NCBI RefSeq assembly: GCF_014196845.1
Contig: NZ_JACIEM010000007.1
Location: 124,001 to 188,000, forward strand
DNA length: 64,000 nt
Direction of reading: 5' to 3'
DNA from: Aurantimonas endophytica
GTDB lineage: Bacteria > Pseudomonadota > Alphaproteobacteria > Rhizobiales > Rhizobiaceae
The notes beneath the pieces were generated by a model. It had not been told where the DNA came from and did not search any database. It was given only the letters and a program-made list of their open reading frames with translations. Of this stretch, positions 5,105 to 25,453 are shown in pieces (within the stretch, counting starts at the first letter, position 1; each line of letters begins with the position of its first letter). The translations under genes and the position numbers were made by a program.

Positions 5105-5311
5105 CGATGACTCCCGATTTTCACTCGCAAGGACTCGCGTCTGAAGGCGGGCGGGCCGCCTCCGGAGCGCCTTGCTGCTTTGTACATCGCCGACATTCTT
5201 GAATGAATCTTCCATGTTCTCCTGTATCTGGGATCTCCTGGATCTGTCATTGAGAAGCTCGCCGAACGCTGCGGCGCTTGCGCACTTGCTTCGGCTCTCA
5301 CGGTCATATTG

Positions 5312-6515: not shown

Positions 6516-6647
6516 GACTTGAGCTCCCCAGATCGCGTTGGCGCGTGAGCTGGCGGATGAGAGGCAAGGACACGAGACCGTTGCATGGACGGCGCCCCTT
6601 ACGAACGTTTCCGATGCGCCATGATGGACAGGACTCGAATGCGGCTT

Positions 6648-6667
6648 CTATCGGGGTAGACCCCGAG
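6648..6667 (-). promoter_or_regulatory. Candidate operator, copy C (upstream of FGE operon)
   Basis: On the minus strand this reads CTCGGGGTCTACCCCGATAG. It matches the copy at 22932-22951 at 18 of 20 positions. It contains a 7-bp inverted repeat (TCGGGGT-AG-ACCCCGA) and lies about 130 bases upstream of the FGE start, between the FGE gene and the end of the response-regulator gene. I propose it as a binding site for a regulator shared by this cluster. Confidence 0.5.
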
Positions 6668-6696
6668 TTCGCCTCAGGTTCTTGCGACTTTTTCGC

Positions 6697-7329
6697 CTAT
6701 ACTTCGATCATGCGGTTGCGGATCGCGTAGCGGATCAGATCGGCCGTGTTCCTGGCACCGAGCTTGCGCAAGGCGGAGGCTCGGTGTGTCTCGACCGTTT
6801 TGATGCTGATGCGGAGGATCGGGCCGATCTCCTTGTTCGTCCGCCCTTCGCCAATGAGCTGGACGATGGTGCGCTCGCGTGGGGTGAGCGGACTTGCCGC
6901 CCTGCTTCGACCGTCCAGGGCGGCATCGAGAAGCGCCCCAGAAACCTTGCCAGAGATGTAGGGCTTGTGCCGGGCCAGTGTTTCGATCGCCTCGAACAGG
7001 TGACTGCGGGCATCGGCCTTGAGCAGACACCCCCTTACCCCTGCCTGGAGTGCATCGCGTATCAAGGCATCGTCGTCGTGCATGGTAAATATCAGCACTT
7101 CCGCCCGGAGGCGGCGTGCCCGGAGTTGTCTTGCCACCTCGACCCCATTCATAATCGGCATCGCGTAGTCGAGGATGACGACGTCCGGCTGGGTCGCGGT
7201 CGCGAGCTCCAGGGCCTCTTGGCCGTTGCGGGCCTCTGCCACTACCGTCCAGTCGCCCCGGGTTTCGATCAGAGCGCGCAGTCCGTCCCGGACAACGTCG
7301 TGGTCGTCGGCGATCAGGATTCGGGTCAT
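6697..7329 (-). CDS. LuxR/NarL-type response regulator
   Basis: A 210-aa two-component response regulator. The receiver domain (residues 1-120) has the acidic pocket DDH near residue 8, the phospho-acceptor Asp54 in VVILDYAMPIMNG, the switch Thr in LIFTMHDDD and the Lys in GCLLKADA. The C-terminal LuxR/GerE helix-turn-helix (about 143-205) shows LTPRERTIVQLIGEGRTNKE and ISIKTVETHRASALRKLG. It starts 33 bases after the stop of the histidine kinase gene, so the two are co-transcribed. It lies between the FGE/arylsulfatase operon and the alkylsulfatase, suggesting control of sulfate-ester genes. Confidence 0.93.
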   Translation of the reverse strand: MTRILIADDHDVVRDGLRALIETRGDWTVVAEARNGQEALELATATQPDVVILDYAMPIMNGVEVARQLRARRLRAEVLIFTMHDDDALIRDALQAGVRGCLLKADARSHLFEAIETLARHKPYISGKVSGALLDAALDGRSRAASPLTPRERTIVQLIGEGRTNKEIGPILRISIKTVETHRASALRKLGARNTADLIRYAIRNRMIEV

Positions 7330-7362
7330 TGGGCCGCCCCCGTTCTCAAGCGGTAGACGAGA

Positions 7363-9501
7363 CTACCGTGGTGGTTTGTTCCCCGCCATTGGTGCAAACC
7401 CTGAGTTCGGTTCAGGCCACTCCTCCGGGAATCGCGATACCTCGCCAACCGGCGGGGCCGACAAGGGCATCGTTGCGCTGACAGTCACGCCCTTCCGACC
7501 ACCTGTCACCGACAGCTCGCCTCCGAGTTGCCGGACCCGAGCCTGCATGCCGGGAATACCCACACCAAGCTTTGGTCGGGAGGCCGAGGACGACATTTGC
7601 GGCAACCCGACTCCGTCGTCCGCTACGCGCAGGCGAAGCATGTTGCCTTCGGTACGGGCGTCGACGGTAATCCGGGTCGCCCGGGCGTGACGGCGGACGT
7701 TCGCCAGGCACTCCTGCGTCACCCGGAGAGCCGCCCAGCACACCTGGGCGTCGGCCGCGTCGATGGTCAGATCGATGCGCGCGCGGACCGTCAGTCCTGC
7801 CCGGCGCGCGAAGCCATGGACGAAGTCGCGCAGTGTGAGCGCCAGCCCGTCGCGTTGGAGATCGGGGGGATAGAGCAGGAACGACAGCGTCCTGATCTCC
7901 CGCTGCGCCTCGTCGATGTTCGTCCCGACACTGCCCAAGGCCGCATCGATGTCGGGGTGCTCGACGGCCAATACGTGTGCGCGGGCCAGGCAAAGTCCCG
8001 CAGCAGTGAGATGCTGGGTCGTGGAATCGTGGAGCTCGACGCCAATTCGTTGTCGCTCCTCGACCTGGAGGTGCAGGAGGCGATCGGCGGTCTCGGCGAG
8101 ATCCCGCTTCGTGATGATGAGATCGGTGATGTCCTCATGGGCAACGACGACATGTACCGCTCCCTCGTGCCTGAACCTCGCCGCCCGCAGCAGGAACCAG
8201 CGATCACCGCAGGGATATTGCGTCCCGAACTCCAAACGCTCGCCGGACAGGAGGGCGGAAAGGCCATCGGCGACCAGTAGGGCAGCCTTCTCGTTGGGCC
8301 CCGCAGAACGGCAGACATCGACGTAGTTGAGGCCGACGCCGTGTCCGGGCGAGGTGTATTCGTTACGCTTCGCGAAGCTGTGCCATGCCCGATTTACCGA
8401 GATTACCGTTCCGCTGGCGTCCAAAATAGCGATATGAGCCGAAAGCGCGTCGAGCGATGCCTTGAGCAGGCCCTTGGCGCGCCGTTCCTCGCCCTTATGA
8501 ACGAGGAGCTGGCCAGATAAGACGCTGAGTGCAGCCTCGGCCTGGCGCGCCGTGAATACGGTTGCCAATCCTCCGGCTATCATCAACAGGGCCGCGGGCG
8601 CTATCATCTGCCAGAGCGCGCCGACCAAGGGTGCCCGGAGATCCGCGAGCGGCATCGCGACGGTCGTTGTCCAATTCGTCGCCCCCGAACGGCGGAATGC
8701 AATTAGGACGGGGACACCCCGGTCGTCCACAGCCTCGACCGCTCCTTCGATCGTGCTGGCGGGGCCAGCGTCGGTCAGGTGCGCGACCAGCTCGGCAGGG
8801 GCCTCAATGTCGAACCCTTTCTGCCCGTCGCGTTCGGTCGCGATCGGCAGGAACTTGCGGTCGTACAGGCCCTTTGTCCAGCCAACGGGGACCGCTTGGT
8901 CGGCCAAGATCTGACTGAGCCGAGCCTGCGAAAGGAATGTCGTGATGAAGCCCGTCATCCGCCCTTCCGCGTCGTCGAGCCGCAGGCTCAGGGCAATGAC
9001 CGTTTCCCCTTTCACCAAGCCTAGCATGCGGCCGGAGACGCTCCACCGCCGGTCCCGGATCCGGTCGAGTTGCTCCTGATAGTTCGCGAAGTCCGTGTGA
9101 CGCGGCAGCGTCGTCCCAAACGGACGCAGAGTATTGACGAGTTGCCGCTCGAGATCGTTGAGGTTTAGCCACGAGCCCTCAGGAACAGGCGTTGCCTTGA
9201 ACTGGTCGTAAACTGCTTTGGCATCGCTCGATAGCAACGCCGGAGACTTCGACAGTCCCTTTAGGAGGTAATTTAGCGCAGCCACTTCCTGATCGAGAGC
9301 GAAGGACAGCGCTACTGAAGCTTGGCCGGCACGGTGCCGGATCTCATCTTGCTCCGCAATCACGCGTGAGACCAAGAGGATCGCCGCGAGGACGCAGGCG
9401 ACGAGGACTATGGCGGTGAACACCAAGGCGACCTGCCCCCCCAAGCGGGGCAGCGAACCCTTAAACGCTCGCCGGGACGATGGGGCGGCGCCCTCCATCA
9501 T
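7363..9501 (-). CDS. Membrane sensor histidine kinase (HisKA_3, NarX/DesK type)
   Basis: About 712 aa from the chosen start. Order: cytoplasmic tail, TM1 (VALVFTAIVLVACVLAAILLV), a ~270-residue extracytoplasmic sensor region, TM2 (MIAPAALLMIAGGLATVF), a PAS-like domain (IAILDASGTVISVNRAWHSF), a HisKA_3 dimerisation box with phospho-His at about residue 490 (ERQRIGVELHDSTTQHL), and a HATPase with N-box ECLANVRRHA and G1 DDGVGLP. The start is uncertain: MMEGAAPSSRR directly before TM1 is preferred, but the frame stays open to 9648 and no candidate has a strong ribosome-binding site. It pairs with the LuxR-type regulator just downstream. The ligand is unknown; position among sulfatases suggests a sulfated or sulfur-related cue. 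Confidence 0.9.
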   Translation of the reverse strand: MMEGAAPSSRRAFKGSLPRLGGQVALVFTAIVLVACVLAAILLVSRVIAEQDEIRHRAGQASVALSFALDQEVAALNYLLKGLSKSPALLSSDAKAVYDQFKATPVPEGSWLNLNDLERQLVNTLRPFGTTLPRHTDFANYQEQLDRIRDRRWSVSGRMLGLVKGETVIALSLRLDDAEGRMTGFITTFLSQARLSQILADQAVPVGWTKGLYDRKFLPIATERDGQKGFDIEAPAELVAHLTDAGPASTIEGAVEAVDDRGVPVLIAFRRSGATNWTTTVAMPLADLRAPLVGALWQMIAPAALLMIAGGLATVFTARQAEAALSVLSGQLLVHKGEERRAKGLLKASLDALSAHIAILDASGTVISVNRAWHSFAKRNEYTSPGHGVGLNYVDVCRSAGPNEKAALLVADGLSALLSGERLEFGTQYPCGDRWFLLRAARFRHEGAVHVVVAHEDITDLIITKRDLAETADRLLHLQVEERQRIGVELHDSTTQHLTAAGLCLARAHVLAVEHPDIDAALGSVGTNIDEAQREIRTLSFLLYPPDLQRDGLALTLRDFVHGFARRAGLTVRARIDLTIDAADAQVCWAALRVTQECLANVRRHARATRITVDARTEGNMLRLRVADDGVGLPQMSSSASRPKLGVGIPGMQARVRQLGGELSVTGGRKGVTVSATMPLSAPPVGEVSRFPEEWPEPNSGFAPMAGNKPPR

Positions 9502-9738
9502 GCAATCGACACCCAGCCGCAGGGCCAACGCAACGGACACTGGGGGCGCGACTGGAACCCACAACATCTCGAACCAGGTTAAACCCTCGCCCGACGCCTG
9601 TCGATCACCCGTCCAGACAAGAGTTAATTCTCTTTCAACGCGTTGCATTCGATGCCGCGGCGGGCGGCCGGACTGACCGGCAGTGGTTCGGCGACCCGTT
9701 CAGCGCAGGCTCAGGTCTCAGGGTCTACCCGCGCGACC

Positions 9739-9758
9739 CTCAGGATTTTCCCGACTGG
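9739..9758 (+). promoter_or_regulatory. Weak operator-like copy D (upstream of alkylsulfatase)
   Basis: The stretch CTCAGGATTTTCCCGACTGG matches the 22932 copy at about 14 of 20 positions, keeping the CTC, GG, TTTTCCC and final G. It lies in the divergent gap between the kinase and the alkylsulfatase, about 275 bases before the alkylsulfatase start. This is the weakest of the four copies. Confidence 0.3.
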
Positions 9759-10033
9759 TTTTCCGTTGGGAAGCCGAACGATACTGCCAGGCATAGCCGC
9801 CAGGAGAAGCACCCATCTGGCGGATGCGGATCTACCAGGCGCGCCAACGATGCGTAGTCGCCTCCTCCGATACTCGCTTGCGCCCCTTTTACGGCATGGG
9901 GCGCCGCGGCCGTAGTCTAGAGCGATCCGCTGCCCTCATGGAACGACGGTCCGGCAAAGCAGACAGACTTCGGCTCCGTCACGAAAGGCTGAGGAACGAC
10001 GCCAACACGCGAAACGACAGAAGGGAAATTCAA

Positions 10034-12019
10034 ATGCGGAAATCCTATCTCTCCAGCATCTCGGCGATCGCGATTTTGGCTACCGGGCTTGCAAGCCCGG
10101 CACTCGGTCAGGATCAGGACGCTCGGAAGGATGCAACCGCGGCAACCACGGCTGCCAACGCGGAACTTCTGAACGAGCTGCCGTTTGACGACACTTCCGA
10201 TTTCGAAAACGCCAAGCGTGGTTTGATCGCTCCTTTGCCGACCGACATGATTGAGGGGCAGGACGGGAACGCCGTCTGGAATCCGCAGCAATACGACTTC
10301 ATAACGGAGGGTGGCGAAGCGCCGGACACTGTAAATCCTAGCCTCTGGCGTCAGTCGCAACTGATCAACATCAGCGGTCTCTTCGAGGTAGTGCCGGACG
10401 GCATCTACCAAATCCGCAACCTCGATCTGTCGAACATGACAATCCTCGAGGGCGAGGAAGGGATTACCGTGGTCGATCCTCTCGTCTCCGAGGAGACGGC
10501 AAGGGTCGCCTTAGAACTCTACTACGAGCATCGAGGCCGGAAGCCGGTGAAGGCGGTGATCTACACCCACAGCCACGTCGACCACTACGGTGGCGTGCGA
10601 GGTGTCGTCGACGAAGCCGACGTGGAGTCGGGCGATGTCAAGATTTACGCGCCCGAGGGCTTCCTCGAAGCGGCGGTGGCCGAGAACGTATTCGCTGGCA
10701 ACGCTATGAGCCGCCGGGCAAGCTACATGTATGGCAACCTGCTGCCCGCTGACGAGAAGGGCCAGGTGGGTGCCGGCCTCGGCACCACTACCTCCGCGGG
10801 CACGGTCACGTTGATCCCACCCACGGACATCATCTCGGAGACGGGCCACACTGAGACGATCGACGGCCTTACCTACGAGTTCCTCATGGCGCCGGGCTCA
10901 GAGGCGCCCGCGGAGATGCTTTGGTACGTCCGGGAGTACAAAGCGATCGAGGCGGCCGAGGACGTTACGCACACACTGCACAACACGTATTCGTTGCGCG
11001 GCGCCAAGATCCGCGAGCCGCTGCCCTGGTCCAAGTACATCAACACCGCGCTGCAAATGTGGGGCGACGAGGCTGAGGTAATCTTCGCACAGCACCACTG
11101 GCCGACCTGGGGCAACGAGAACGTCGTCGAACTTATGGAGAGCCAGCGCGATCTCTACCGCTACATCAATGACCAGACGCTTCACATGGTCAACCAAGGA
11201 ATGACCATGCGGGAGATCGCGGATGCGTTCGAGCTGCCCGAGAGCCTCGCCAACGTCTGGGCGAACCGCGGCTACTACGGCTCAATTTACCACAATGTCG
11301 CTGCTACTTACGTCCTTTATCTTGGCTGGTTCTCGGGCAACCCGGCGACCCTCCACGAATTGCCGCCGGAGGAAGCGAGTCAAAAATACGTCGAGTTCAT
11401 GGGTGGCGCTGATGCGATCATCGAGAAGGCCAAGCAGTCCTATGAACAGGGAGAATATCGCTGGGTGGCACAGGTCCTCAATCACGTCGTCTTCGCCGAC
11501 CCCGACAACCAGGCAGCTAAGGACCTCGAGGCTGACGCGCTCGAGCAGCTTGGCTACCAGGCCGAGTCGGGGCCGTGGCGGAACTTCTACTTGACCGGGG
11601 CCAAGGAGCTGCGAGACGGCGTCGAGGAGCTGCCAACGCCGAACACGGCAAGTCCGGACACGGTTCGCGCTATGACACCGGAAATGTTCTTCGACTATCT
11701 GAGCATCCGCCTCGACAGCGGGGCGGCGGCCAATGCCGAGATCACGCTGAACGTCGACCTCGGCAACGAGGGCGGGCAGTACGTCCTCGAGTTGCAGAAC
11801 GGTGTGCTCAACAACACCGCCGACACGCAAGCCGATGATGCGGACGCGACCTTGACGCTGTCGCGCGACACGCTGAACCGGATGATTCTTGGCGAGGCGA
11901 CAGCACCGGATCTCGTCAGCTCGGGCGACATTCAGCTCGAGGGCGAAGCCACCAAGCTCGAGGAACTAGTATCCTATCTCGGCACGTTCGAGTTCTGGTT
12001 CGGTATCGTAACGCCCTAG
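10034..12019 (+). CDS. Secreted alkylsulfatase, SdsA1-like (type III, MBL fold)
   Basis: A 661-aa protein that would hydrolyse linear alkyl sulfates such as SDS to an alcohol and sulfate. It has a signal peptide (MRKSYLSSISAIAILATGLA...), then a metallo-beta-lactamase domain with the zinc motif THSHVDHYGG at residues 178-187 and a further metal-binding segment around IFAQHHWPTWG. A helical dimerisation region follows, then a C-terminal SCP2-like domain (NAEITLNVDLGNEGGQYVLEL...). Length and order match the SdsA1 family. I chose the ATG at 10034 because it begins the signal peptide and has AAGGGA upstream; the frame is open from 9824. It is divergent from the two-component pair and may be its target. 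Confidence 0.93.
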   Translation: MRKSYLSSISAIAILATGLASPALGQDQDARKDATAATTAANAELLNELPFDDTSDFENAKRGLIAPLPTDMIEGQDGNAVWNPQQYDFITEGGEAPDTVNPSLWRQSQLINISGLFEVVPDGIYQIRNLDLSNMTILEGEEGITVVDPLVSEETARVALELYYEHRGRKPVKAVIYTHSHVDHYGGVRGVVDEADVESGDVKIYAPEGFLEAAVAENVFAGNAMSRRASYMYGNLLPADEKGQVGAGLGTTTSAGTVTLIPPTDIISETGHTETIDGLTYEFLMAPGSEAPAEMLWYVREYKAIEAAEDVTHTLHNTYSLRGAKIREPLPWSKYINTALQMWGDEAEVIFAQHHWPTWGNENVVELMESQRDLYRYINDQTLHMVNQGMTMREIADAFELPESLANVWANRGYYGSIYHNVAATYVLYLGWFSGNPATLHELPPEEASQKYVEFMGGADAIIEKAKQSYEQGEYRWVAQVLNHVVFADPDNQAAKDLEADALEQLGYQAESGPWRNFYLTGAKELRDGVEELPTPNTASPDTVRAMTPEMFFDYLSIRLDSGAAANAEITLNVDLGNEGGQYVLELQNGVLNNTADTQADDADATLTLSRDTLNRMILGEATAPDLVSSGDIQLEGEATKLEELVSYLGTFEFWFGIVTP

Positions 12020-12030
12020 GCGTCGCCAGT

Positions 12031-12069
12031 TGGCCTGCTTCCGCGGCTGTTGCTGCCGGAAGCAGGCCA
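12031..12069. terminator. Perfect 13-bp hairpin after the alkylsulfatase
   Basis: TGGCCTGCTTCCG and its exact reverse complement are separated by 13 bases and begin 11 bases after the alkylsulfatase stop. No T-tract follows, so it is a candidate factor-assisted terminator or mRNA 3' stabiliser rather than a textbook intrinsic terminator. Confidence 0.5.
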
Positions 12070-12197
12070 CGAGGCCCACCTGGCACAAAGGATAGCCGGA
12101 AGGGAAAAATCCGTCGACCCTTGGGCCGTGTCGGCTTGGATGGGAGCACGCCTCAATCGGATGTGAGAAGCGGCGGACCTGAAACGGGGGAAGTTTG

Positions 12198-13091
12198 ATG
12201 CATCATCTTATGCGACGGCTCACCGGAGGATTGGCGATCTACGCCATTATGGCCGTCTCAGGTGTGGCGGCTCTTGCTGCGGACGTACCTACAGTCCCGC
12301 CCGCTGACGGCCCGGTGCCCACGGCCTCTTCATGGAGCTTTCGCTTCGTGCCGTATGGCTGGGTCATCGCCATGGACGGTACGCAGACGGTGCGGGGACG
12401 TTCGGTGAGCGTTGATGCGAGCTTCATCGACATCCTAGAGAAGAGCGACAGCCTTCTGGCCTTGATGGGCACCTTCGAGGCGCGCCGGGGCCCGCTCGCC
12501 TTCTACAGCGACGTGGTCTGGACCAAGATCGGCGTGGAGAGCAGCAATGTCCGCAACCGGGCGCCGGCGCCCGGCGTGGCCGGAGAACTCGGTACGTCCG
12601 TCAGCCTCGACATCGAGATGGCCATCGTCGAGGGAGGGGTCGCGTATGAGGTAGCCCGCTCGGGCGGACTGGCACTCGATGTCCTTGGCGGGGCCCGGTA
12701 TTGGCATCAAGAGGCTGCCGTCTCCTCTGAGATTTCCGCCTCGGTGGATGTCGGGGACCTGGAGCTTTCCGGTTCCCGGGCTTTTGCCCGCTCCGGATCC
12801 GTAGACTGGATCGATCCGGTGATCGGCGCCCGCGTGCGCCATGAGGTGGCGCCGGGGCATGAACTCTTCCTGCGCGGGGACATCGGCGGCTTCGGCGTCG
12901 GCAGCGACTTCTCCTGGCAGGCTGTCGGCGGCTACGGCTTCGAGTTCGGCACCTATCAGGGAGTAACGTTTTCTGGTGTGCTCGGTTACCGGGCGCTCTC
13001 CGTGGACTACTCCGAGGGACAGGGACCGGAGCGGTACGAGTTCGACATGCTCCAGCATGGAACGATCCTGGGCATCAGCGCCCGATTTTGA
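12198..13091 (+). CDS. Outer-membrane beta-barrel protein
   Basis: A 297-aa exported protein. A signal peptide (MHHLMRRLTGGLAIYAIMAVSGVAALAA) precedes a chain of alternating hydrophobic/polar strands rich in Gly and aromatic residues. It ends in phenylalanine (GTILGISARF), the usual C-terminal signature of a beta-barrel recognised by BAM. The ATG at 12198 has GGGGGAAG just upstream; an in-frame TTG lies directly before it. Neighbours are the alkylsulfatase upstream and exported DUF proteins downstream. Ligand and function are unknown; a porin or surface-adhesin-like barrel is possible. Confidence 0.8.
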   Translation: MHHLMRRLTGGLAIYAIMAVSGVAALAADVPTVPPADGPVPTASSWSFRFVPYGWVIAMDGTQTVRGRSVSVDASFIDILEKSDSLLALMGTFEARRGPLAFYSDVVWTKIGVESSNVRNRAPAPGVAGELGTSVSLDIEMAIVEGGVAYEVARSGGLALDVLGGARYWHQEAAVSSEISASVDVGDLELSGSRAFARSGSVDWIDPVIGARVRHEVAPGHELFLRGDIGGFGVGSDFSWQAVGGYGFEFGTYQGVTFSGVLGYRALSVDYSEGQGPERYEFDMLQHGTILGISARF

Positions 13092-13381
13092 TGCCCGTTC
13101 GGACTACAGCCGCATCCGAGGCGGACCCCGATCAGCCACCGAGCAGGACTGCCACCCCTACGCGAGATCGAATGGCTTCTTGCGTTCACTCAAGGGCGAA
13201 ACTGAAACCCGAGCGGAGCGGCACAGGCGGCAACCGCGATTAGTACTGGAAACGCCGCTGGAACAGGGCGCCACCACTAGGCGTCGATTCGGTAGGCGGG
13301 GCAGTCTAGGTCGACGGAGACTACGCAAGTCGGCATCTCGGATCCGCCGGCCAATAAGACATCGGCACAGGAGACAACGAG

Positions 13382-14203
13382 ATGATGGATGTTACCAACG
13401 TTTCGACAGTGGTCAGACAGACGTGGCGAGGCATCATGACGGCCTTCAACACGGCAACAATAGCCTCGTTCTTTGTCTTGGTGGGCCTCTCCAGCGCAGC
13501 GAGGGCAGAGGATGGCCGTGCGTTGCTGAGAGATATGTCCGATTATATGGCGGATCAGCAGGCCTTCTCCTTCACCTACCGATCCAGCATCGGTGTCGTC
13601 ACCGAGGATTTCCAGAAGCTTCAATTCGTTAGCTCGGGAGCAGTGACCGTCAACCGTCCCGACAAGCTTTGCGCCACTCGTACGGGAGGCTTCGCGGACA
13701 TCGAGCTTCTCTTCGATGGCCGCACGTTGACCGTAGTCGGTAAGAATCTTGAGGCTTATGCGCAGTTCGAGGCCGAAGGTACATTGGACGACACGCTTGA
13801 CCTCCTTTACAATGCTGGCGCAAACGCGCCCGGCGCCGACATTGTCTCTTCCGACATTTACAGTCTGCTGATGAAGGATGCGTCTGGCGTAGAGCACGTG
13901 GCAAGCGCGAACGTTGGCGGCATCCCATGCGAGTACCTGACCATTCGCAAGAGTGACGTGGGCCTTCAAATCTGGATCGAAGTGGGGGAACGGCCGATAC
14001 CGCGCCGCTATGTGATCACCTCAAAGCACGTTTCCCAAGCTCCCGAGTACATCCTGGAGATCGACGAGTTCGGTTCGGGCACGTTGCTTGAAGCGGCCGA
14101 GTTCCGTTTTGAAGCAAACGAAGGAATGCGGAAGGTCGATATGAGCGCGCTGGTGGCGATAGACGGATTGCCCAACCCATCGGAAGCCGGAGACATTGAA
14201 TGA
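13382..14203 (+). CDS. DUF2092 family periplasmic protein
   Basis: A 273-aa exported protein with an uncleaved-looking polar N-terminus and then a signal segment (FNTATIASFFVLVGLSSAARA). The body resembles DUF2092 proteins: ALLRDMSDYMADQQAFSFTY near the start and a lipoprotein-carrier-like (LolA/LppX-type) strand pattern with LCATRTGG, LLFDGRTLTVVGKN and RRYVITSK. These proteins are predicted periplasmic and have no settled function; a lipid- or hydrophobic-ligand-binding fold is inference. Two adjacent ATGs (13382, 13385) follow a GGAG. Its stop overlaps the start of the next small gene (ATGA). Confidence 0.82.
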   Translation: MMDVTNVSTVVRQTWRGIMTAFNTATIASFFVLVGLSSAARAEDGRALLRDMSDYMADQQAFSFTYRSSIGVVTEDFQKLQFVSSGAVTVNRPDKLCATRTGGFADIELLFDGRTLTVVGKNLEAYAQFEAEGTLDDTLDLLYNAGANAPGADIVSSDIYSLLMKDASGVEHVASANVGGIPCEYLTIRKSDVGLQIWIEVGERPIPRRYVITSKHVSQAPEYILEIDEFGSGTLLEAAEFRFEANEGMRKVDMSALVAIDGLPNPSEAGDIE

Positions 14204-14544: not shown

Positions 14545-14794
14545 CGGGAATGACCTGCATAGTTTATCCCCTCATGAGCCGACGGCCCTGCTTCTTGAGT
14601 TGCTGCGCCAACTGATCAAGGAAGGCTATTCGGGTCAAATTACATTGAGCCAGTTCCAGCGGTTCCAAGATGTCCGCGACCAACTGGAGAAGGACGGGTT
14701 CAAGTTCGGGCTGCCGTCAGGCAATTGAAGCATCGGTCGCAGACCGCCAGAGGCACAACCGGCGGCCTGCGAATCCCAGCAACGGAGAAGAGCC

Positions 14795-16167: not shown

Positions 16168-17643
16168 ATGGCAAAGCAGATCCGGGCGCATCGAAAGTCC
16201 CGCGTACACTCAGCAGTTGAAATGAGGGCGACCACAATGAGGAATCGAAGGTTTGTTTCGGCCGGTGCCATGGCCATCGCCATCCTCCTGGCAGCCAATG
16301 GCTCCGACATGACCACGATCGCTCAGGAGCAGACGGCTGCCGCCGACCCGGGCGCGGCTGCTGCGCAGGCGCCGGAGCCGCTGAGCGCCGACGAATTAGA
16401 AGTGCTGGTGGCGCGCATCGCGCTCTATCCGGACGAACTGATCGCGTTGATCTCGAGTGCCTCGCTCTATCCGCTGCAGATCGTGGAGGCGGCGCGTTTC
16501 CTTGACGAACATGCCAAGGATAGCAGCCTGCAGGCCAAGGAGAGCTGGGACGGCAGCGTGATCTCGCTGCTTAACTATCCCGAGATAGTGAAGATGATGA
16601 GCGTTGATCTCGACTGGACGCAGGCGCTCGCCGATGTGCTCGCCTACCAGCAGAAGGACGTGCTCATCGCCATCCAGCAACTGCGCGAGGAGGCGGTGGC
16701 CAAGGGCATCATCAAGACTGACGACAAGGTCAAGGTGGAGAATTCGGGCGGTAACATCATCATCCAGCCGGCGAGCCCGGAGACGGTTTATGTACCACGC
16801 TACGAGCCGCAGATGCTGTACGAGCCGAACTATGTTGCGGCGCCGATCGCCTACTATCCCGACCCCTATCCCACCTATTGGTATCCGACAGCGCCCTTCT
16901 TCGCCGCGGCGGTCACCGGCGTGGTGTGGGCGGCCGCGGTCGACTGGGACGATTGGGACTTGTGGGGCGGCCACTGGGACGGCGGCGATATCGACGTTGA
17001 CTGCAACAATTGCTTCAACAACCGCTATTTCGATGGCAATATCAACTTCAACGACGTCGACTGGAAGAATGTCGACCGCTCGAAGCTTAACTTCGACCGC
17101 GACCAGTTCGCCAAGTTCGACCGCACCAACATCAAGAACCGGGTCGCGACCAACCGCGCCAATTCCATCGGCAACCGGGCGAGCGAGATCAAGCGCGACC
17201 GTACCTCGAATTTGTCAAACCTGACGGTCAAAGCCCACGATATACGCAAGAGCACGCTGGACGGCCTCAAGAAGCCGGGGGGCGCACAGGCAAGGGCTCG
17301 TCCGAACGTCCAGCGGCCGGCGGCGCGCCCGAATGTCCCACGGCCGACGGCGCGCCCGGACGGGAACCGGCGCGAGGCTTCGCGTCCGAATGTGCAACGG
17401 CCCGCCAACGTCCACCGCCCGGCCGGCAAGCCGAAAATGGCGCACAAGGTCGACCACAGGCCGAAACACCACGGGGCGCTGGGTCACCCGCATCGCGGCA
17501 AGGTAACGAAGGTGCATTCCAACCGCGGTCACCATGCTATGGGCGGCGGTCATCGCGGCGGTGGAAGAGCCGTTCACCATGCCGGGGGCAGACGAACCAT
17601 GCATCATGGCGGCGGACATCGCGGCGGCGGCCGCAGGCGTTGA
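16168..17643 (+). CDS. DUF3300 domain exported protein
   Basis: A 491-aa exported protein. After a basic leader, a signal-like segment (FVSAGAMAIAILLAANG) is followed by the DUF3300 domain: LSADELEVLVARIALYPDEL, LYPLQIVEAARFL, SWDGSVISLLNYPEIVKMM and PETVYVPRYEPQ. Then comes a Trp/Asp/Asn-rich stretch and a long basic tail of RPN(V)QRPA-type repeats ending His/Gly/Arg-rich (HHGGGHRGGGRRR). The ATG at 16168 has GAGGAGG five bases upstream; a later start at MRNRRF would give a shorter signal peptide. DUF3300 function is unknown. The basic tail could bind nucleic acid, acidic polymers or peptidoglycan, but that is inference. DUF2950 follows directly. Confidence 0.88.
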   Translation: MAKQIRAHRKSRVHSAVEMRATTMRNRRFVSAGAMAIAILLAANGSDMTTIAQEQTAAADPGAAAAQAPEPLSADELEVLVARIALYPDELIALISSASLYPLQIVEAARFLDEHAKDSSLQAKESWDGSVISLLNYPEIVKMMSVDLDWTQALADVLAYQQKDVLIAIQQLREEAVAKGIIKTDDKVKVENSGGNIIIQPASPETVYVPRYEPQMLYEPNYVAAPIAYYPDPYPTYWYPTAPFFAAAVTGVVWAAAVDWDDWDLWGGHWDGGDIDVDCNNCFNNRYFDGNINFNDVDWKNVDRSKLNFDRDQFAKFDRTNIKNRVATNRANSIGNRASEIKRDRTSNLSNLTVKAHDIRKSTLDGLKKPGGAQARARPNVQRPAARPNVPRPTARPDGNRREASRPNVQRPANVHRPAGKPKMAHKVDHRPKHHGALGHPHRGKVTKVHSNRGHHAMGGGHRGGGRAVHHAGGRRTMHHGGGHRGGGRRR

Positions 17644-17648
17644 AATCG

Positions 17649-18635
17649 ATGAGGATCAGGACAATGAACGTGATCCTTTACAAGCTGCACACGACCTGCA
17701 TCGCTGCCCTTACGGTCGGCCTAGCAGGCGCACTGCCGGCTCTGACACGCGCGCAAGAGCCTGACCAGGCGACCCGGCAAGCCGCGCCGGAAGGCATCTT
17801 CGCCTTCGAGGCCGAGGACGAGCCCCCGCTTTTCGACGATGCGGCGCCCGCGATCGACGCCCTCAAGAAGGCACTGGCCGATAACGACTTCGACGGCCTG
17901 GCCAAGCTGCTCGGACTCGACGTCGTCAAACTCAAAGAGGCGGAAGGCGTAACGGACACTTTCGTGCAAATCCGCAACGGCGCGGCCAAGCAGGTGGTGG
18001 TCGAAGACATCGAGAACGGCAAACTGCTGCAAATCGGCGAAAAGCTTTGGCCGTTCCCGTTTCCGCTCCTGAAAGGGGAAGACGGCAAATGGGCCTTTGA
18101 TACCCAAGCGGGCCTGGAGGAAATCGTCAACCGCCGCGTTGGCGAGAACGAGCTGGAGGCAATCGCTACGATGCGCGCCTATGTCGAGGCGCAGAAGGAC
18201 TATGCCGGACAGGACCGCGACGGTGACGGGGTCGAGGAATTTGCGCAGAAGCTGATCAGCACCGAGGGCACCACCGACGGTCTCTACTGGCCGGCGGATG
18301 ACGTCAACGACGAAAGTCCGGCGGGCGACCTTAGCAAGGCGGATGTGGATGACGCCGCGCAGGGCGACGGTTATTTCGGCTACCGCTTCAAGATCCTGAC
18401 CGGTCAGGGCGACCGGATCGCAGGCGGCGCCTACGACTACGTGATCAACGGCAACATGATCGGCGGCTTCGCGCTCATCGCCTGGCCCGTCAGATATACA
18501 GAGACCGGCGTGCACACGTTCGCGGTCAACCAGCACGGCATCATCTACGAAGCCGATCTCGGCCCGGCGACCGAAACGATCGTCAAATACATCAACCGCT
18601 TCGATCCCGACGATAGCTGGAGCGTCGCCGACTAA
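17649..18635 (+). CDS. DUF2950 family exported protein
   Basis: About 328 aa, exported (signal LHTTCIAALTVGLAGALPALTRA). The DUF2950 domain is clear: FDDAAPAIDALKKALADND, LLQIGEKLWPFPFPLLKG, WAFDTQAGLEEIVNRRVGENEL, YFGYRFKILTGQG and GGFALIAWPVRY. It follows DUF3300 with essentially no gap, a pairing I recall as frequent in proteobacteria. The start is uncertain: ATG at 17649 or 17664 (the latter preceded by AGGATCAGGACA). Function unknown; proposed envelope-associated. Confidence 0.88.
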   Translation: MRIRTMNVILYKLHTTCIAALTVGLAGALPALTRAQEPDQATRQAAPEGIFAFEAEDEPPLFDDAAPAIDALKKALADNDFDGLAKLLGLDVVKLKEAEGVTDTFVQIRNGAAKQVVVEDIENGKLLQIGEKLWPFPFPLLKGEDGKWAFDTQAGLEEIVNRRVGENELEAIATMRAYVEAQKDYAGQDRDGDGVEEFAQKLISTEGTTDGLYWPADDVNDESPAGDLSKADVDDAAQGDGYFGYRFKILTGQGDRIAGGAYDYVINGNMIGGFALIAWPVRYTETGVHTFAVNQHGIIYEADLGPATETIVKYINRFDPDDSWSVAD

Positions 18636-18639
18636 TGGG

Positions 18640-18875
18640 GTGGCCTAACCCCTGAAAAGTGGTCCTACCTGAGGTAGGCTTTTGAGTCTTTGGAGGATGT
18701 CAGGAATGCCGAGGAAGAAGCACCAGCCCGAAGAGATTGTCGCGAAGCTGAGGCAGGTCGACGTGTTGTTGTCGCAGGGCGTCCTGTGGCGGAAGCGATC
18801 CGCACAATTTCCGTAACGCCGTTCACCTACTACCTCTATGGACGGCTCTCCCGTTGCAAGCGGGCTTTGATCTGA
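18640..18875 (+). mobile_element. IS3-family OrfA remnant, frameshifted
   Basis: From the ATG at 18706 (after GGAGGATGTCAGGA) the sequence encodes MPRKKHQPEEIVAKLRQVDV, the N-terminus of an IS3-family OrfA helix-turn-helix protein. The frame breaks after LLSQG. The continuation VAEAIRTISVTPFTYYL lies in another frame up to about 18875, consistent with a one-base deletion in CAGGGCG. The rest of OrfA and all of OrfB are absent. The CTACCTGAGGTAG dyad at 18664-18676 may belong to the IS end. This is a non-functional fragment. Confidence 0.75.
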
Positions 18876-19066
18876 TCCGCGTGGTCCGTTGCAAACATCT
18901 ATCCGGCGTCACCCTGTGCCGGGGCGCCCAAATGGCAAATCCGCTCGCGCACGCCTCTACAGCTGGTAGGCCTCGAAGGCCTCGATAGTAGTCAGGCTCT
19001 TTGCGCGCCGGTCCGACCTGTGCGTCTCATTTCTCCGTCAGCTCGCAATCATGATGGGCAGGCTCT

Positions 19067-19965
19067 TCAGGCGGCGACGCGGTATGGTTCGCCCGTGCGA
19101 AGCACGGCCCAGATGATCCGCGCGTTCTTGTTGGCGACGGCAACCGTTGCTCGGTTGAAGCCGCGTCGCTCCCGAAGTTGATTGACCCACTGGTTCAGTG
19201 AGTCGGCCTTGTTCACGCAGGCTCTCACCACGGCTCTGGCGCCATGGACTAGAAGGCTGCGCAGATGCTGATTACCGCGCTTGGAGATACCCATCAGCAG
19301 GGTACGATCGCCGCTTGAAAACTGGCGCGGCACCAGGCCGACCCAAGCCGCGAGATGACGGCCGCTCTTGAACTCGGCGCCGTTGCCGACGGCCGCGATG
19401 ATGGCCGTGGCGATCTTCGAACCAACGCCTTCGATCCTGGCGACACGCTGGCAAGGTTCGCTCTCGCGAAACACCCGTTCGATCTTCTTGTCGAACGATG
19501 TGATGTGGCGGTCGAGATCGCGGAAGAGATCGTAGAGCTCGTGGATGGCCTCGCGGGCCATCGGCGTCAGCTCGTTGCTGAAGTCAGTCAGGATGTCGGG
19601 GATCAGCCGCCGGGCACAGGTGATGCTCTTGGGCATCGCCAAACCGCGGTCGAGCAGAAGACCCCTGATCTGGCTAACAACGGCCGTGCGATGGTTCACT
19701 ATGCGCTGGCGAGCCCGGTGCAAAGCTTGGATGTCCTGCTGCTCGATCGTCTTTTTCGGCACCAGCGGGATGTGGGGCTGCCTGGCGGCGGTGCAGATCG
19801 CCTCGGCACCGTTGCCGTCGTTCTTACGCCGACGCGCGAAAGGCTTCACATACTGCGGGCTGACGATCTTCACCCGATGTCCGAGAGCCTCAAACTTGCG
19901 GCCCAGGTAAAGCGCCGGTGCAGGCCTCGACGACGATCGTGCAGGGCTGGTTTGCGCATGTCTAT
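19067..19965 (-). pseudogene. IS110-family transposase, N-terminally truncated
   Basis: The C-terminal three quarters of an IS110-family DEDD transposase is readable: FEALGHRVKIVSPQYVKPFA, a KNDGNGAEAIC segment, IEGVGSKIATAIIAAVG (Transposase_20 helix-hairpin-helix), and LLMGISKRGNQHLRSLLVHGA with the conserved Ser-containing end region. The normal KNDAADA motif is altered. At about 19930 the frame is shifted: VVEACTGA is in a different frame from LGRKFEALGH. The N-terminal RuvC-like half is missing beyond about 19965, so the copy is dead. It abuts the stump of an arylsulfatase gene on the other strand. Confidence 0.82.
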
Positions 19966-19977
19966 TATCCCGGCACC

Positions 19978-20512
19978 TCCGGTTCCGGAGGGGGTGGCCA
20001 TGAATATACGGGGGGGGGGATCGTACAAGATCCTCGTTGACGTCGAAACCACCGTACCCGACTGCTCTGGCGTGATCTTCGCGCACGGCTCCCGTTTCGG
20101 TGGTCACAGCCTTTTCATCAAGGATAGGAAGCTCCACTACATCTACAATTTCCTCGGCATCAAGCCGGAGCAGAAGTTCGTCTCCGAGGAACTCGCGCCG
20201 GGAAGCTACACCCTCGGCATGGAGTTCATCCGCGACAAGGCCGGCCAGTACGGCGAATCTCTCGGCAAGGCGAAGCTCTACGTCAACGACCAGATCGTGG
20301 CGCAGGGCGAGATGAAGACGCAACCCGGCAAGTTCACGCTGTCTGGCGACGGCCTGTGCATCGGCCGCGACAGCGGCGATGCTGTGAGCAAGGAATCCGC
20401 CACGCCTGCTGCGTTCAAGGGTGGGGTCATCAAGTTCGTCGCCATCACCGTGGAGGCGGCGCAGTATCTCGATCTTGAAAAGCTGACAGCTGCCGCGATG
20501 GCGGTTGACTGA
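19978..20512 (+). pseudogene. C-terminal stump of a second arylsulfatase
   Basis: The open frame from about PEGVAMNIRGGGSYKILVDV to the stop at 20512 matches the C-terminal beta-sandwich found after the catalytic domain in long arylsulfatases: GVIFAHGSRFGGHSLFIKD, LHYIYNFLGIKPEQKFVS, YTLGMEFIRDKAG and KLYVNDQIVAQGEM. The whole catalytic domain, including the CxPxR site, is missing; IS110 remnant sequence begins just upstream. A run of ten Gs at 20010-20019 lies inside the remaining frame. It probably records loss of a second type I sulfatase by IS insertion and deletion. Confidence 0.75.
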
Positions 20513-20578
20513 GAACCTTCTGCAGACGCGCCGGGCGGGTTCTCGCAGAGCCGCCCGGTGCCCAGGAGGCAAGTCCAG

Positions 20579-20907
20579 ATGGCACCCGTCCCCCGCCTCC
20601 GACTTCCGACGAGATTTCCGTCGAGCTGTCATCACTCCGCACCGGCATGTCGTTCCAGCGGACCCGGATGAGCGCAGACCGCATCTTGATGTCGGTGATC
20701 CGCACATCGCTGTCGCTGATCGGCTTCGGCTTCACGATCTTCCAACTCTTCCAGAAGCTGCGCGACATGTGCCCGCTCGCTCATGCCGAAGCGCCGCGGA
20801 ACTTTGGCATATGCCTCGTGGCGCTCGGTATCGCCATGCTGACCAGTCCGAGCCATGAAGCTTTGCGCAACCTGAGCACAAGCCGGCTTGGCCTGCGAGC
20901 GGAATGA
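20579..20907 (+). pseudogene. DUF202 (YidH-type) membrane protein, frameshifted and shortened
   Basis: The ATG at 20579 follows an excellent AGGAGG, giving MAPVP. The DUF202 body (TSDEISVELSSLRTGMSFQRTRMSADRILMSVIRTSLSLIGFGFTIFQ; landmark FQRTRMSADR) is in the next frame, consistent with a missing C in a run of five Cs. The first helix pair is present (ISLIGFGFTIF and ICLVALGIAML), but the region after ALGIAML is shortened compared with family members. The product is probably non-functional unless the shift is a sequencing error. Homologues are small inner-membrane proteins of unknown function. Confidence 0.65.
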
Positions 20908-20922
20908 TCCGGAGGACGGCGC

Positions 20923-22763
20923 TCAAACCTGCCCGGGCGAGTTAACGGTCCGGGGCACCAACCGAATACCGTTTTCGTTGAAGGCGTTCTGCACGCCCTC
21001 GAGCACAGCCTTGCGGATGCCGAACTGCCTGCCGGCCTTGGCCTTGAATTTGCCCCTGATCAGCAGGGTGCCGTCCTCGACCGCGGCGATGCCCTGGCTC
21101 TTGAACGGCTCGATCAGGTCCGGCTTCAAGATCGGATTCGCCGCGATGTCGTTGCCGATCTGCTTGAACAGCTTGCGCACCTTCTCGACGTCGGTCTCGA
21201 GGGCTACGCGAAACGCCAGTTTCTCGATCACCAATCCCGACTGTAGTTCTGGATCTTTCCAATCTGGCCGTAGGGAACGGTGGCCAGGGCGCCGCGCGAA
21301 TGGCGCAACGTGACCGCGCGCGCCGAAATCTTCTCGACGGTTCCCTTGGCACCCGATGTTTCGATGTACTCACCGAGGCGGAAAGCGTCGTTGAGCAGGA
21401 AGAAGAGACCCGACACGAGATCCTTCACGAGGGTCTGCGAGCCTAGGCCGATGGCCAGCCCGAAGACGCCAAGGCCGGTGACGAGGGGCCAGACGTTCAC
21501 CTCAAGAATCAGGAGAATGGTAAGGGCCGACAGGATCAGGATGCCTGTCTTGGCCAAGCCGGCGAGAAGCGGAAGCAGGGTCTCCAGTCGCGTATGAGCC
21601 GGGGGGGGCGTGGCCTTCGGCGCCGGGCACCTGATGTTCTCGGCGATCGAGGCGCCGGACCGCGACGGCAACCACGTTCCACAGGAATGCCCCCACCAGA
21701 ACCACCAGACCGATCTGAAGCGCCTTGGCGCGGATGACGCTCACATCGACCTCGAGCGCCGTCAAGCCAGGCAGCGCCCATTCGTATCCGAGCAGGACTA
21801 TCACGAGAGAAAGGAACGCAAACCGCGCCATCCGTCGCAGCGCCGCCGGCAACAGGGAGCCGGAGCCAGAGCCCGCGCGTTCTTTCCGCTGCGCCCAGGC
21901 AGCAATCGCGCTGTCGACGTGAGGCGCCACGAGCACCAGCAACAGGGTCGCGATCATCGCAAGGCTCGGCAAGGGGCGACCAAGCGTCAAGGCAAGCTGG
22001 AGGCTCAGGGCAGTCCCGGCCAGGGCAAGAACTGCCAGAGCCGGCCATGCGTGCGCGAACCCGGCGCGCCGGGGAGATACGGGTGCAGGACCTGCCACGG
22101 CGTGCCGGACTGCCCAGTTGAATCGGCAGTAGGCGAAGACGAGAATGAACGTTCCGGGAAGGGTGATCAGGAAGGTGCCGAAAAGATCGCGAAGCCCGGG
22201 CCGGCGCTCCAAACGGTCATCGTCGAGAGTGCTGCAAGGCCGAACAGGCCCCAGGCGATACCGAAGGAGAGGGTGTCGGCAAAGGCATGAAGCTTTGACC
22301 CCAGACGGGGCGCCTTGATGGCGCTGCTCATCAGCCCTGCCAGGAATTGGCGCACCATGAGGGCGAGGATCGCAGCAAGGCCCCACACTTGCGCTATATG
22401 GCGTTCGCTTGCCCCCGGCAGCGCGATCCGCGCGAACATGATGACAGTAATGACCGCAAGCACACCTCCTGCGAGCCTTGCTATTTCGGGATGGGCGGCC
22501 ATGTATCCCGCGTCCCGCATCAACAGTGTCCGAAAGCCGAGGAATGTCATGCTGGCCAAAGCGGCCGCGATAAGTGCGACGACGGCAATCCCCGCAATCC
22601 GTGTCCATCGGCGGCGAGAACCCTCAGGGACGCGCTCCACTCCGTGCCGACCTCGGCCAGGTTCGTCAGCCGGGCGTTGAGTCCTGCTGTAAAAAGGCCT
22701 GCGCAACTCCGTCGAGGCGTCCGACAATGGCTGTGGCGCCTTCCGACACGTCGTCCACATCAT
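20923..22763 (-). pseudogene. MscS-family mechanosensitive channel, three frameshifts
   Basis: A long MscS-type channel can be pieced together from three frames on the minus strand. From MMWTTCRKAPQPLSDAS (start near 22763) to about 22190 there are several TM helices. From about 22190 to about 21660 further helices follow (LFGTFLITLPGTFILVFAY; FLSLVIVLLGYEWALPGLTAL). From about 21670 comes the conserved channel core NVWPLVTGLGVFGLAIGLGS, QTLVKDLVSGLFFLLNDAFR and LRHSRGALATVPYGQI, ending NYSRDW plus stop, then VIEKLAFRVALETDVEKV in a third frame to 20923. Each break is explained by a 1-base indel (for example TTGG(G)TGATC at 21232). Either pseudogene or sequencing error. An intact product would gate ions on membrane tension. 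Confidence 0.78.
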
Positions 22764-22985
22764 GCTCCCATCAGCAACCACCTCGCCTTGCTGGCGAGGC
22801 GGTCGCAAGTCTTGCCCGTTCCCTTGATCCCGGCCAATCGGGGTTTGCCCATAGCCGGCGTCGGGAATTCCCTGATCTGCTCTCGATATTCATGATGATA
22901 AAGCGGGGGCATCCTTCCTCACTGCACGAGCCTCGGGGTTTTCCCCGATAGGCAGCGCTGCTGCGGGGCCGTACTCTTGGCGTAT
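22750..22985 (+). repeat. Diverged upstream-region repeat, copy 1
   Basis: This stretch resembles 24880-25115 in order and wording. Both carry TTGCTGGCG(A/T)GGCGGTCG-like and CCAAT...GG segments, then CCTCGGGGTTTTCCCC(G/A)ATAGGCAG, GCTGCTGCGGG and CTTGGCGT at near-equal spacing. The second half (22931-22985) is much better conserved than the first. It overlaps the start of the MscS pseudogene and precedes the 136-aa secreted protein. Confidence 0.5.
22932..22951 (+). promoter_or_regulatory. Candidate operator, copy A
   Basis: CTCGGGGTTTTCCCCGATAG, the reference copy. It holds a GGGG-TTTT-CCCC hairpin/dyad and is followed by GGCAG, GCTGCTGCGGG and CTTGGCGT, which are also conserved after copy B. 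It lies about 190 bases upstream of the secreted-protein gene at 23141 and between it and the divergent MscS pseudogene, so it could serve either. Confidence 0.5.
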
Positions 22986-23140
22986 GGTCAACCGCGGGCA
23001 TGTGCATAGGCAACCGCCGTGTCGGGCACGAGCGGTCTCGCGAAGCGGCGGCCGGTAATCGTTCGGTCGTTAGCGGCTGTTGCCGCGGCGACCGACAGGA
23101 TGCGACGTTCGTCGACAAGCAAGGGATCCGGACGAGTAAG

Positions 23141-23551
23141 ATGTTGAACAACCGCTCCGTCCTCGTCCTTGCCGCGATGGCCGCGTCGGCGACCTTGGCC
23201 CATGCTGCCTCGCTCGAAGCCTTGCAGGGGGCATGGGTCGAGGTGCAGTCCGAGTGCGGCGACATCTTCGAAGGGCAGGGCGGCGAGCTCGCCTTTCGGG
23301 ACAAGGGGTCGTCGCTGAACACCGGGCTCATCATTTCCGGCAGCCGCATCGAAGGTCCCAATGCCACCTGCACGGCGGAGAGGGTTCATGAAGGAGATCA
23401 GGGCCTGATGACCGTGCTCATGACCTGCGCCACGCAGATCATGTCCGGCGGCATCTCGACCTCTTTCCGGGTCATCGACGCGGACCATTTCGAGCGTTAC
23501 GAGAACGCCTTTCCCGACATCGCCGTGCGCTACCAGCGATGCGAGCCGTAG
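23141..23551 (+). CDS. Small secreted hypothetical protein
   Basis: A 136-aa exported protein: signal peptide MLNNRSVLVLAAMAASATLAHA, then SLEALQGAWVEVQSECGDIF and a compact beta-rich domain with four to five cysteines (ECG, ATCTAE, TCATQ, RCEP) likely to form disulfides. The ATG at 23141 is chosen because it starts the signal peptide; the frame is open further upstream. The domain is lipocalin-like in feel (a GxW near the start), but I cannot assign a family. The next gene begins inside its last codons. Confidence 0.7.
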   Translation: MLNNRSVLVLAAMAASATLAHAASLEALQGAWVEVQSECGDIFEGQGGELAFRDKGSSLNTGLIISGSRIEGPNATCTAERVHEGDQGLMTVLMTCATQIMSGGISTSFRVIDADHFERYENAFPDIAVRYQRCEP

Positions 23552-24788
23552 CGATGGCGTCGCGCCCGCTGGGGGCGGTCGCGCTTCTGCTCGTTTTCGC
23601 GGGGTGCTCCGGACGTCCCGAAGGCGTCCTGAAGCGCTGGCGGCTGCTCTCCCGGTTCCCGGGGCCAACGAAATCTCGATGCTGGTGGCGACCACGCGCG
23701 CGCCGGTCGACGATCCCGCCTTCCTGTATTCCGGGGAGCGCGGCGCGAGGGTATCACTGACCGACATCGGGGTGTCGATACCGCCCGCCACGGTCCGCCG
23801 AGTGGGTGAGGTGCAGTGGCCACGAAGGTTGCCGCCGGATCCCCGCACGGAATTCGCGGTTCTGCGAGCGGCGCCTGTCGACATCAGCGACAGCCGCAGG
23901 TGGATGGACGAGCATCTCCATGCCAAGCGCAACGTGCTGATCTTCGTGCACGGCTTCAACAATCGTTACGAGGACTCCGTCTACCGCTTCGCGCAGATCG
24001 TCCACGATTCCGGCGGCGACGTAACCCCCGTGCTGTTCACCTGGCCATCACGAGCCAGCGTCTTCGATTACAGCTAGGACAAGGAGAGCACCAACTACTC
24101 GCGCGACGGTCTCGAATTGGTGCTCCGCGCGGTCGCCACTGACCCCAACGTGGGAGAGGTGACGGTGATGGCCCGCTCCATGGGCACATGGCTGGCGGTC
24201 GAGGCGCTGCGCCAGATGGCGATCCGGGACGGCCGCATCGCCCCGAAAATCCGTAACGTCATCCTCGCGTCGCCGGATATCGACATCGACGTTTTCCGCG
24301 AGCAGTGGGTCCAGTTCGGCGAGGAGAAGCCGAAGTTCACCGTCTTCGTGTCGACCGACGACAGGGCGCTGAAGGTTTCGCGGCTCATCTCCGGCGACAG
24401 GGCGCGGCTCGGGGCGGTCGACCCGTCGGTCGAGCCTTACCGCACCGAGTTCGAAAGGGCTGGCATCGACGTGATCGATCTCACGACCTACGACAGCGCC
24501 GACTACCTCAATCACTCGAAGTTCGCCGAGAGCCCGGAGATCGTCAGGCTGATCGGACAGCGCCTGCTGGACGGACAGCCCATCACCGATTCCCGGGTGG
24601 GCATCGGCGATACCATCGGCGCCGTGGCGGTGGGGGCGACGCAAGCCGTCGGCCACACCGCGGCCGCGGCGGTCAGCATACCGCTGGCGGTGGTCGACCC
24701 GACGACCCGCCGCAATCTCGGCAGCCAGATGAACGCGGTGGCTGAAAGCACCGGCGCCACGCTTGACATCGCGCAGCCCGGAAGCTGA
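23539..24788 (+). pseudogene. DUF900-type alpha/beta hydrolase lipoprotein, broken
   Basis: The gene begins as a lipoprotein (LGAVALLLVFAGCSGRPEG, lipobox FAGC). The frame then shifts near 23630, after which ISMLVATTRAPVDDPA, VDISDSRRWMDEHL and NVLIFVHGFNNRYEDSVYR (DUF900 oxyanion region) are read in another frame. A TAG at 24075-24077 interrupts between VFDYS and DKESTNYSRDGLE, where a Tyr codon is expected. Translation resumes in frame: VTVMARSMGTWLAVEALRQM carries the nucleophile-elbow-like sequence (ARSMG), then DIDIDVFREQW and the rest to 24788. Two independent lesions make a real pseudogene more likely here than sequencing error. Family members are exported serine hydrolases of unknown substrate. 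Confidence 0.78.
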
Positions 24789-25453
24789 TCAAGGAACCGG
24801 AATGCCGTCGCCTATGCGCTCGCATCTGACGAGTCAAAGAGTGCATATGGGTCGACCGTGAACGACGGAAGGGGCACCTTTCGACAAATCGTCCCATACT
24901 GCTTCCTTGGGCTTTGCGCCCCCTGCTGGCGTGGCGGTCGTCTCGCCCATGCCCCGGTTATCGACCAATGACGGCTTCGCCCCTTGTCAGCATGCGGGCT
25001 TCCCGATCTGCCCGTGCTCATGGCAAAGATAGGCGCGTCCCTTTGCCCTCACGCATTACCTCGGGGTTTTCCCCAATAGGCAGAAGCTGCTGCGGGATTG
25101 TAGGCTTGGCGTCTGGTGAGTCGGAGGTATCCGCCCATGCACCCGTCCCGTCGGGCAAGGCCGTACCCACAACGCGGCGTCCGGACATCGGCTCATTCGG
25201 CAACTGTCGTTGCGCTGGCAATTTCCACGCCGCGAATTTCGGAGCCGTGCCGACTGTCGACACGCCAAGGGGTGGTGATCTCCCTCTGCATCGGCGCCGA
25301 TAGAGCGTGATGACTACCTCCGGCGCCTCGAGTTATCGGCCAAAGGCGACGACGTTCCTCCAACAAGTCCAAGGCCATCAAGCGCGAGAGCACTGGCGGA
25401 CGGCATGATCGTTTCCTGCCCGGAAACGGGTGATGAGAAGAAGGACTCCGAGA
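24789..25453. other. Long intergenic region with repeat copy 2
   Basis: About 665 bases without a convincing gene. The part 24880-25115 is a diverged repeat of 22750-22985 and includes operator copy B; the remainder shows no recognised feature. It probably carries the promoter of the transporter-like gene at 25454. Confidence 0.5.
25060..25079 (+). promoter_or_regulatory. Candidate operator, copy B
   Basis: CTCGGGGTTTTCCCCAATAG, 19 of 20 identical to copy A, with the same conserved extension (GGCAG, GCTGCTGCGGG, GTA, CTTGGCGT up to 25113). It lies about 375 bases upstream of the transporter-like gene. Confidence 0.5.

Follow-up and report, generated by a model that had tools for sequence, protein, structure and literature searches.

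A palindromic repeat in a sulfatase gene cluster of Aurantimonas endophytica is the probable operator of the cluster's own two-component regulatory pair

Results

The window, by which we mean the whole 64-kb stretch of Aurantimonas endophytica DNA that was analysed, contains a gene cluster in which a gene for an FGE-sulfatase family protein (formylglycine-generating enzyme-like; 5523..6515, minus strand; PF03781, E 2.1e-82) has a sulfatase gene downstream of it (3452..5215, minus strand; PF00884, E 7.8e-50), and in which a plus-strand alkylsulfatase gene (9824..12019) encodes an SdsA-like domain set (PF14863, PF14864 and PF00753). Further along lie a DUF3300-DUF2950 pair, with DUF3300 first (16168-18635); an IS110/IS116-type transposase gene within the cluster (19067-20707) and, near it, an ORF (21502-22608) that matched no Pfam family; a gene for a small, probably exported protein (23000..23551, plus strand; likely start 23141); a DUF900 alpha/beta hydrolase gene (23604-24788), which an in-frame stop splits into two ORFs that both match the family; and a gene for a transporter-like, probably exported protein (25430..26260, plus strand). 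DUF2092 and HAD genes are also part of the cluster.

Between the FGE and alkylsulfatase genes, on the minus strand, are genes for a response regulator (6697..7329; PF00072, E 3.1e-27; PF00196, E 6.6e-18), the proposed binder of the repeat described below, and a membrane histidine kinase (7363..9648). The regulator, described in the original prediction as LuxR-type, is not a quorum-sensing LuxR protein; its predicted receiver domain and C-terminal GerE/LuxR helix-turn-helix, together with the adjoining gene for a HisKA_3 kinase, place it in the NarL/FixJ family. VraR and NarL are among its PDB matches (E about 1e-30), whereas it scores below the cut-off of the MctR equivalog NF052445 (178.1 of 300 bits), and the operator words and target genes of the named NarL/FixJ members are, to our knowledge, unlike those of the present regulator. 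The kinase has a periplasmic dCache-like domain, PAS_4 (below Pfam's cut-off), HisKA_3 (PF07730, E 2.9e-10) and HATPase_c (PF02518 present). A comparison of its sensor domain with the PDB by sequence returned nothing meaningful; an AlphaFold model of the domain, which spans 250 residues and is flanked by two hydrophobic segments judged by eye to be membrane helices, was built with 37 homologous domains (pLDDT 91.1, pTM 0.85) and matched solved dCache domains in Foldseek. The first PDB match was 3lif, the extracellular domain of the histidine kinase rpHK1S-Z16 (E 6.7e-11, TM 0.63/0.65), to which the predicted fold is alike at a sequence identity of 15%. The periplasmic part of the kinase is thus predicted to be a double-Cache sensor between two membrane helices.

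The repeat CTCGGGGTTTTCCCC occurs exactly at 22932(+) and 25060(+), with two mismatches at 6653-6667(-) and with three at 9739(+); with up to three mismatches the window has eight matches against 2.69 expected, and eight was reached by one of 100 shuffles. All four copies that had been described are present, and the identities given for them (19/20 between 22932 and 25060, 18/20 between 6648(-) and the former, copy A) were right by eye, but a site at 7389-7408(-), upstream of the regulator gene, had been overlooked. The copy at 9739 is weak and proved to be the second member of a tandem pair whose first member is 9714-9733. Copies A and B (22932 and 25060) are real but, having arisen by a single duplication, are not independent sites: they belong to a duplicated block running from the dyad into the leader (132 bp, 73%, E 2e-17; upstream likeness weaker), the two paralogous promoter-plus-leader blocks (22930-23060 and 25058-25190) standing before two different exported-protein genes, with long leaders of roughly 157 and 340 nt up to the likely ATGs.

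For a view of the motif from other genomes, we used 300 bp upstream of 64 alphaproteobacterial regulator homologues and left the window aside. The homologues came from the best 80 of 264 genome stretches that encode a regulator relative, with eight plasmid records added. The best motif from a de novo search by expectation maximisation (30 seeds, both strands) was GTTTCAGGGTTTtcCCc, estimated to be present in 91% of the 64 upstream regions. Its strong matches lie mostly 60 to 165 bp upstream of the regulator homologues (in L117 at -275), those of at least 14 bits all have the same orientation, and many regulator loci carry two copies 22 bp apart. The repeat word as originally described gave eight matches in a loose scan of the 80 homologous loci (reversed control, 0), a low number because the family consensus has TCAGGG; that consensus was recovered by regular expressions and then by the unbiased search, and CTCGGGG is a local variant of the family motif TCAGGGTNTNCCC. 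For regulator promoters the count with the resulting matrix was 47 of 92 hits, which is partly circular because regulator promoters had supplied the training set; most of the loci are from Microvirga, so counts across loci are not independent events.

When both strands of the window were scanned with this cross-genome matrix, the first five matches were at 7389(-), 22929(+), 25057(+), 6651(-) and 9714(+), and all lie in the sulfatase cluster, which supports the proposal of a shared operator and regulon at the level of sequence. The same five lead with a matrix from which the six closest regulators were removed, the site at 7389-7408(-) being the top or second match of the cross-genome matrix; after column shuffling, not one of 500 matrices reached five window matches of 14 bits, and a Markov null predicts 0.64 matches above 14 bits per 64 kb, or, scaled, about 50 per 5 Mb. 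The putative autoregulatory dyad (7389..7404, minus strand; 21.1 bits) sits within the final codons of the kinase gene, with a -10 word TAGTCT at 7360-7365. Upstream of the FGE and sulfatase genes the dyad (6651..6666, minus strand; 15.4 bits) is followed by a -10-like CATCAT (6621-6626). On the alkylsulfatase side, divergent from the kinase gene, the distal operator of the plus-strand tandem pair (9718..9733; 14.5 bits) is joined, 22 bp further on, by the weak proximal one (9740..9755; match at 9736, 8.4 bits) with a -10-like GATACT (9780-9785). Copy A (22933..22948, plus strand; 21.0 bits; -10 TACTCT, 22972-22977) stands before the small exported protein gene and the split DUF900 hydrolase gene, and copy B (25061..25076, plus strand; 19.5 bits; -10 TAGGCT, 25101-25106) before the transporter-like protein gene. 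Most cluster genes are without a site, none being recognisable at the DUF2092, HAD, DUF3300 and DUF2950 genes, so that the DUF3300-DUF2950 pair has no operator of its own. A weak element at 22837 scored below 6 bits with the cross-genome matrix and was not counted.

Alignment of 89 non-redundant promoter-proximal sites on the dyad brought out a single additional conserved feature, a -10 hexamer starting at +31 (z of the mean score 6.1 among the 82 offsets from 8 to 89; 45% of sites above 2 bits). TAnnnT occurs at this offset in 22 of the 89 sites, with seven at the next best offset and a mean of 0.66 over offsets. In the window, TAGTCT and TACTCT start at +31, and TAGGCT, CATCAT and GATACT (sites 25057, 6651 and 9736) at +32. 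Placing the hexamer from -12 to -7 puts the centre of the dyad at -43.5; the operator sites showed no consensus -35/-10 pair. The fixed distance from operator to -10, with no -35 box, is the arrangement of a class II-like activator, as judged from sequence. Some NarL/FixJ-family members activate from sites near -40. Gene calls by a longest-first heuristic left 44 of 107 sites without a downstream gene; that tally was set aside and starts based on tblastn were used instead.

The site in front of the regulator gene is conserved together with its -10 TAGTCT in the two nearest orthologues, those of Microvirga subterranea (L034) and M. brassicacearum (L035). The latter also retains the alkylsulfatase-side tandem pair (9714/9736); its FGE-proximal site is missing, and FGE there comes after the regulator and has no separate site. 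Among 27 FGE homologues in regulator loci, 11 have a site of at least 14 bits upstream and 14 one of at least 12 bits, the other 16 lacking a 14-bit site; 350-bp stretches drawn at random from these loci, a stricter null since the loci contain sites, gave 1.55% and 2.0% at 14 and 12 bits, respectively (4000 draws). For the small exported protein, four homologues (32-37% identity) were examined, of which two carry a site upstream (25.7 and 21.0 bits), a third scoring 11.8 bits, and at 14 bits no site was found before any of 18 transporter homologues in relatives (from 19 non-own places, with the fragment L169 left out). Nor did any of 10 FGE homologues on plasmids, chosen for spread among 15 of 213 matching records, reach 14 bits; the best, at 11.3 bits, is in Microvirga, and has regulator homologues elsewhere in its genome, the regulator having been sought within 4-kb flanks in these controls. 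On a Bradyrhizobium japonicum plasmid among the control loci (L180), a 22.3-bit match at 4946(-) lies antisense within coding sequence at an FGE/sulfatase junction. More distant regulators likewise have no 14-bit site upstream, neither the 12 of 33-39% identity nor the 24 of distant groups (Acidobacteria, Verrucomicrobia and others); a Hyphomicrobiaceae locus outside the distant-group count (L104) has one of 14.1 bits. In many bacteria of soil and root nodules, related regulators appear to carry the same site before their own genes.

The own genome, of 5.04 Mb, contains 20 places that match TCGGGGTNTNCCCCRATAG when three mismatches or fewer are allowed (reversed pattern, 7). Three are copies with zero mismatches, all in the sulfatase cluster; the remaining 17 have three mismatches each, one of them being the 7389 site, and beyond the three cluster copies no place lies within two mismatches. 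A looser pattern has nine matches, three in the cluster (reversed control, 3), and four of its six off-cluster matches, which by position overlap open frames, score 15.1 to 19.9 bits; a stricter pattern has four, three of them in the cluster. Across 99 relatives the stricter pattern has 111 matches against 44 reversed, about 1.1 per genome, and in the 59 of these relatives that were checked no close regulator homologues were found. In eight genomes with regulator homologues there are 21 strict-pattern matches against 8 reversed, and one of the eight has zero. The specificity of the pattern is limited and lone matches mean little, so the argument rests on the clustering of sites. A 3.4-Mb genome of the same order (G036) has nine operator-pattern matches, mostly TCGGGGTCTGACCCC, which may be an unrelated repeat. 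Neither of the two refuting tests named beforehand, the genome-wide scan and the comparison of orthologous promoters, refuted the original prediction: the three exact copies are all in the sulfatase cluster, and the motif came first in the de novo search in front of the regulator homologues and stands before 11 of the 27 FGE homologues in regulator loci.

The nearest relatives of the regulator are from Microvirga (85 and 88% identity), followed by those of Bosea, Bradyrhizobium, Sphingomonas and others, whereas the best homologue has 39% identity in 59 relatives of the own genome and 37% in the own genus (seven genomes). This disparity points to transfer, and the sequences suggest that the kinase/regulator pair was probably exchanged with Microvirga, in either direction; a search for RepC, as a sign of a plasmid origin of the contig, found none in the own genome. 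Several paralogous kinase/regulator pairs per genome share one operator word in the Microvirga loci L034-L089, making cross-talk possible. With the caveat that flank lengths vary with contig, among loci with a sensor at least 50% like that of the window, 22 of 23 carry FGE, sulfatase or alkylsulfatase genes in the available flank, as do 6/16 with a more distant sensor, 6/25 other alphaproteobacterial loci and 0/24 distant loci. Parts of the set of FGE, sulfatase, HAD, DUF3300-DUF2950, DUF900, transporter and DUF2092 genes recur on rhizobial and Paracoccus plasmids, where these communities have no site at FGE.

Discussion

The motif, its conservation and position, its spacing to the -10 element and its co-occurrence with the regulator are results of computation, and on the DNA side the proposal has good support. 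We consider it likely that the repeat is the operator of the cluster's own dCache kinase/NarL-type activator pair, which would regulate itself and the sulfatase genes. In the mechanism that we propose, the periplasmic double-Cache domain of the kinase would sense a small molecule and the kinase would then phosphorylate the regulator (6697-7329), a dimer of which would bind the palindrome TC(A/G)GGGTNTNCCC(Y)GA with its centre about 43.5-44.5 bp upstream of the transcription start. The bound dimer would replace the -35 box and recruit sigma-70 RNA polymerase to the -10 element that starts 31-32 bases past the dyad. The regulator would in this way activate its own gene through 7389, FGE through 6651 (probably together with the sulfatase that follows), the alkylsulfatase through the pair 9714/9736, and the two probably exported proteins through 22929 and 25057. 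Here we infer binding, phosphorylation, activation rather than repression, and the signal, taking the protein side by analogy from the families to which the two proteins are assigned.

The sign of the effect is the part of this proposal most readily turned round, since a dyad in the -35 region could also block polymerase. That the same regulator instead represses from the dyad, or exerts mixed effects there, nevertheless seems unlikely to us: these promoters have no recognisable -35 box, the distance from dyad to -10 is fixed, as expected of an activator acting in place of -35, and tandem dyads occur 22 bp apart, i.e. two helical turns, in many loci. It is less probable still that the dyad is the site of a regulator other than the cluster's own. 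The background matches in relatives without a close homologue (111 in 99 genomes, reversed 44) would sit well with such a regulator, but the dyad was found de novo directly upstream of homologues of the present one and was not seen before the 12 regulators of 33-39% identity and the 24 of distant groups.

We give very little credence to the idea that GGGG-TTTT-CCCC has no part as an operator and is instead a mobile repeat or, at the RNA level, a hairpin or terminator. Its inverted-repeat form and the location of copies A and B inside a duplicated block speak for that idea. Against it, the dyad stands upstream of a spaced -10, no listed terminator-like site falls at any dyad, there are just three exact copies genome-wide, and no Rfam match was found at 22700-25500.

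The sulfatase regulators SdsB1, SftR and CysB/Cbl are LysR-type one-component regulators of alkyl- or arylsulfatase genes. The system proposed here is alike in its control of sulfatase genes, but it would exert that control through a two-component pair instead. The pair itself belongs to a known kind of system (NarL/FixJ-type two-component). A literature search of open-licence papers found no description of this operator among the papers listed, and among the matches listed for the motif words in open-licence paper texts, none was by its title on the subject. In root-nodule bacteria, DUF2950 and DUF3300 are named as candidates for plant interaction that are induced and probably secreted and whose function is unknown (PMC4653623). 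The cluster has the DUF3300-DUF2950 pair in the gene order reported there, and no operator of the present kind was recognisable before it.

A broader picture may be sketched, as a speculation that we hold only tentatively and think more apt to fail than to stand. In it, a family of paralogous dCache kinase/NarL-type pairs, of which each Microvirga genome carries several, would use one operator code. In plant-associated bacteria these pairs would make up a network that is mobile, may involve cross-talk and would govern sulfate-ester and cell-surface genes. The sensor would read a sulfated compound from plant or soil, and targets would join by capture or duplication of the operator-promoter module, a route suggested by copies A and B.

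For a cluster in which sulfatase genes occur alongside DUF3300-DUF2950, the analysis defines a putative sensor and regulator, their operator and the layout of the promoters. If the proposal is right, the regulon would be readable from genomes by the operator word and the inducer could be looked for with one reporter, and operator sharing between paralogous two-component pairs would become open to study. A gene switch that was previously unstudied is thereby made directly testable.
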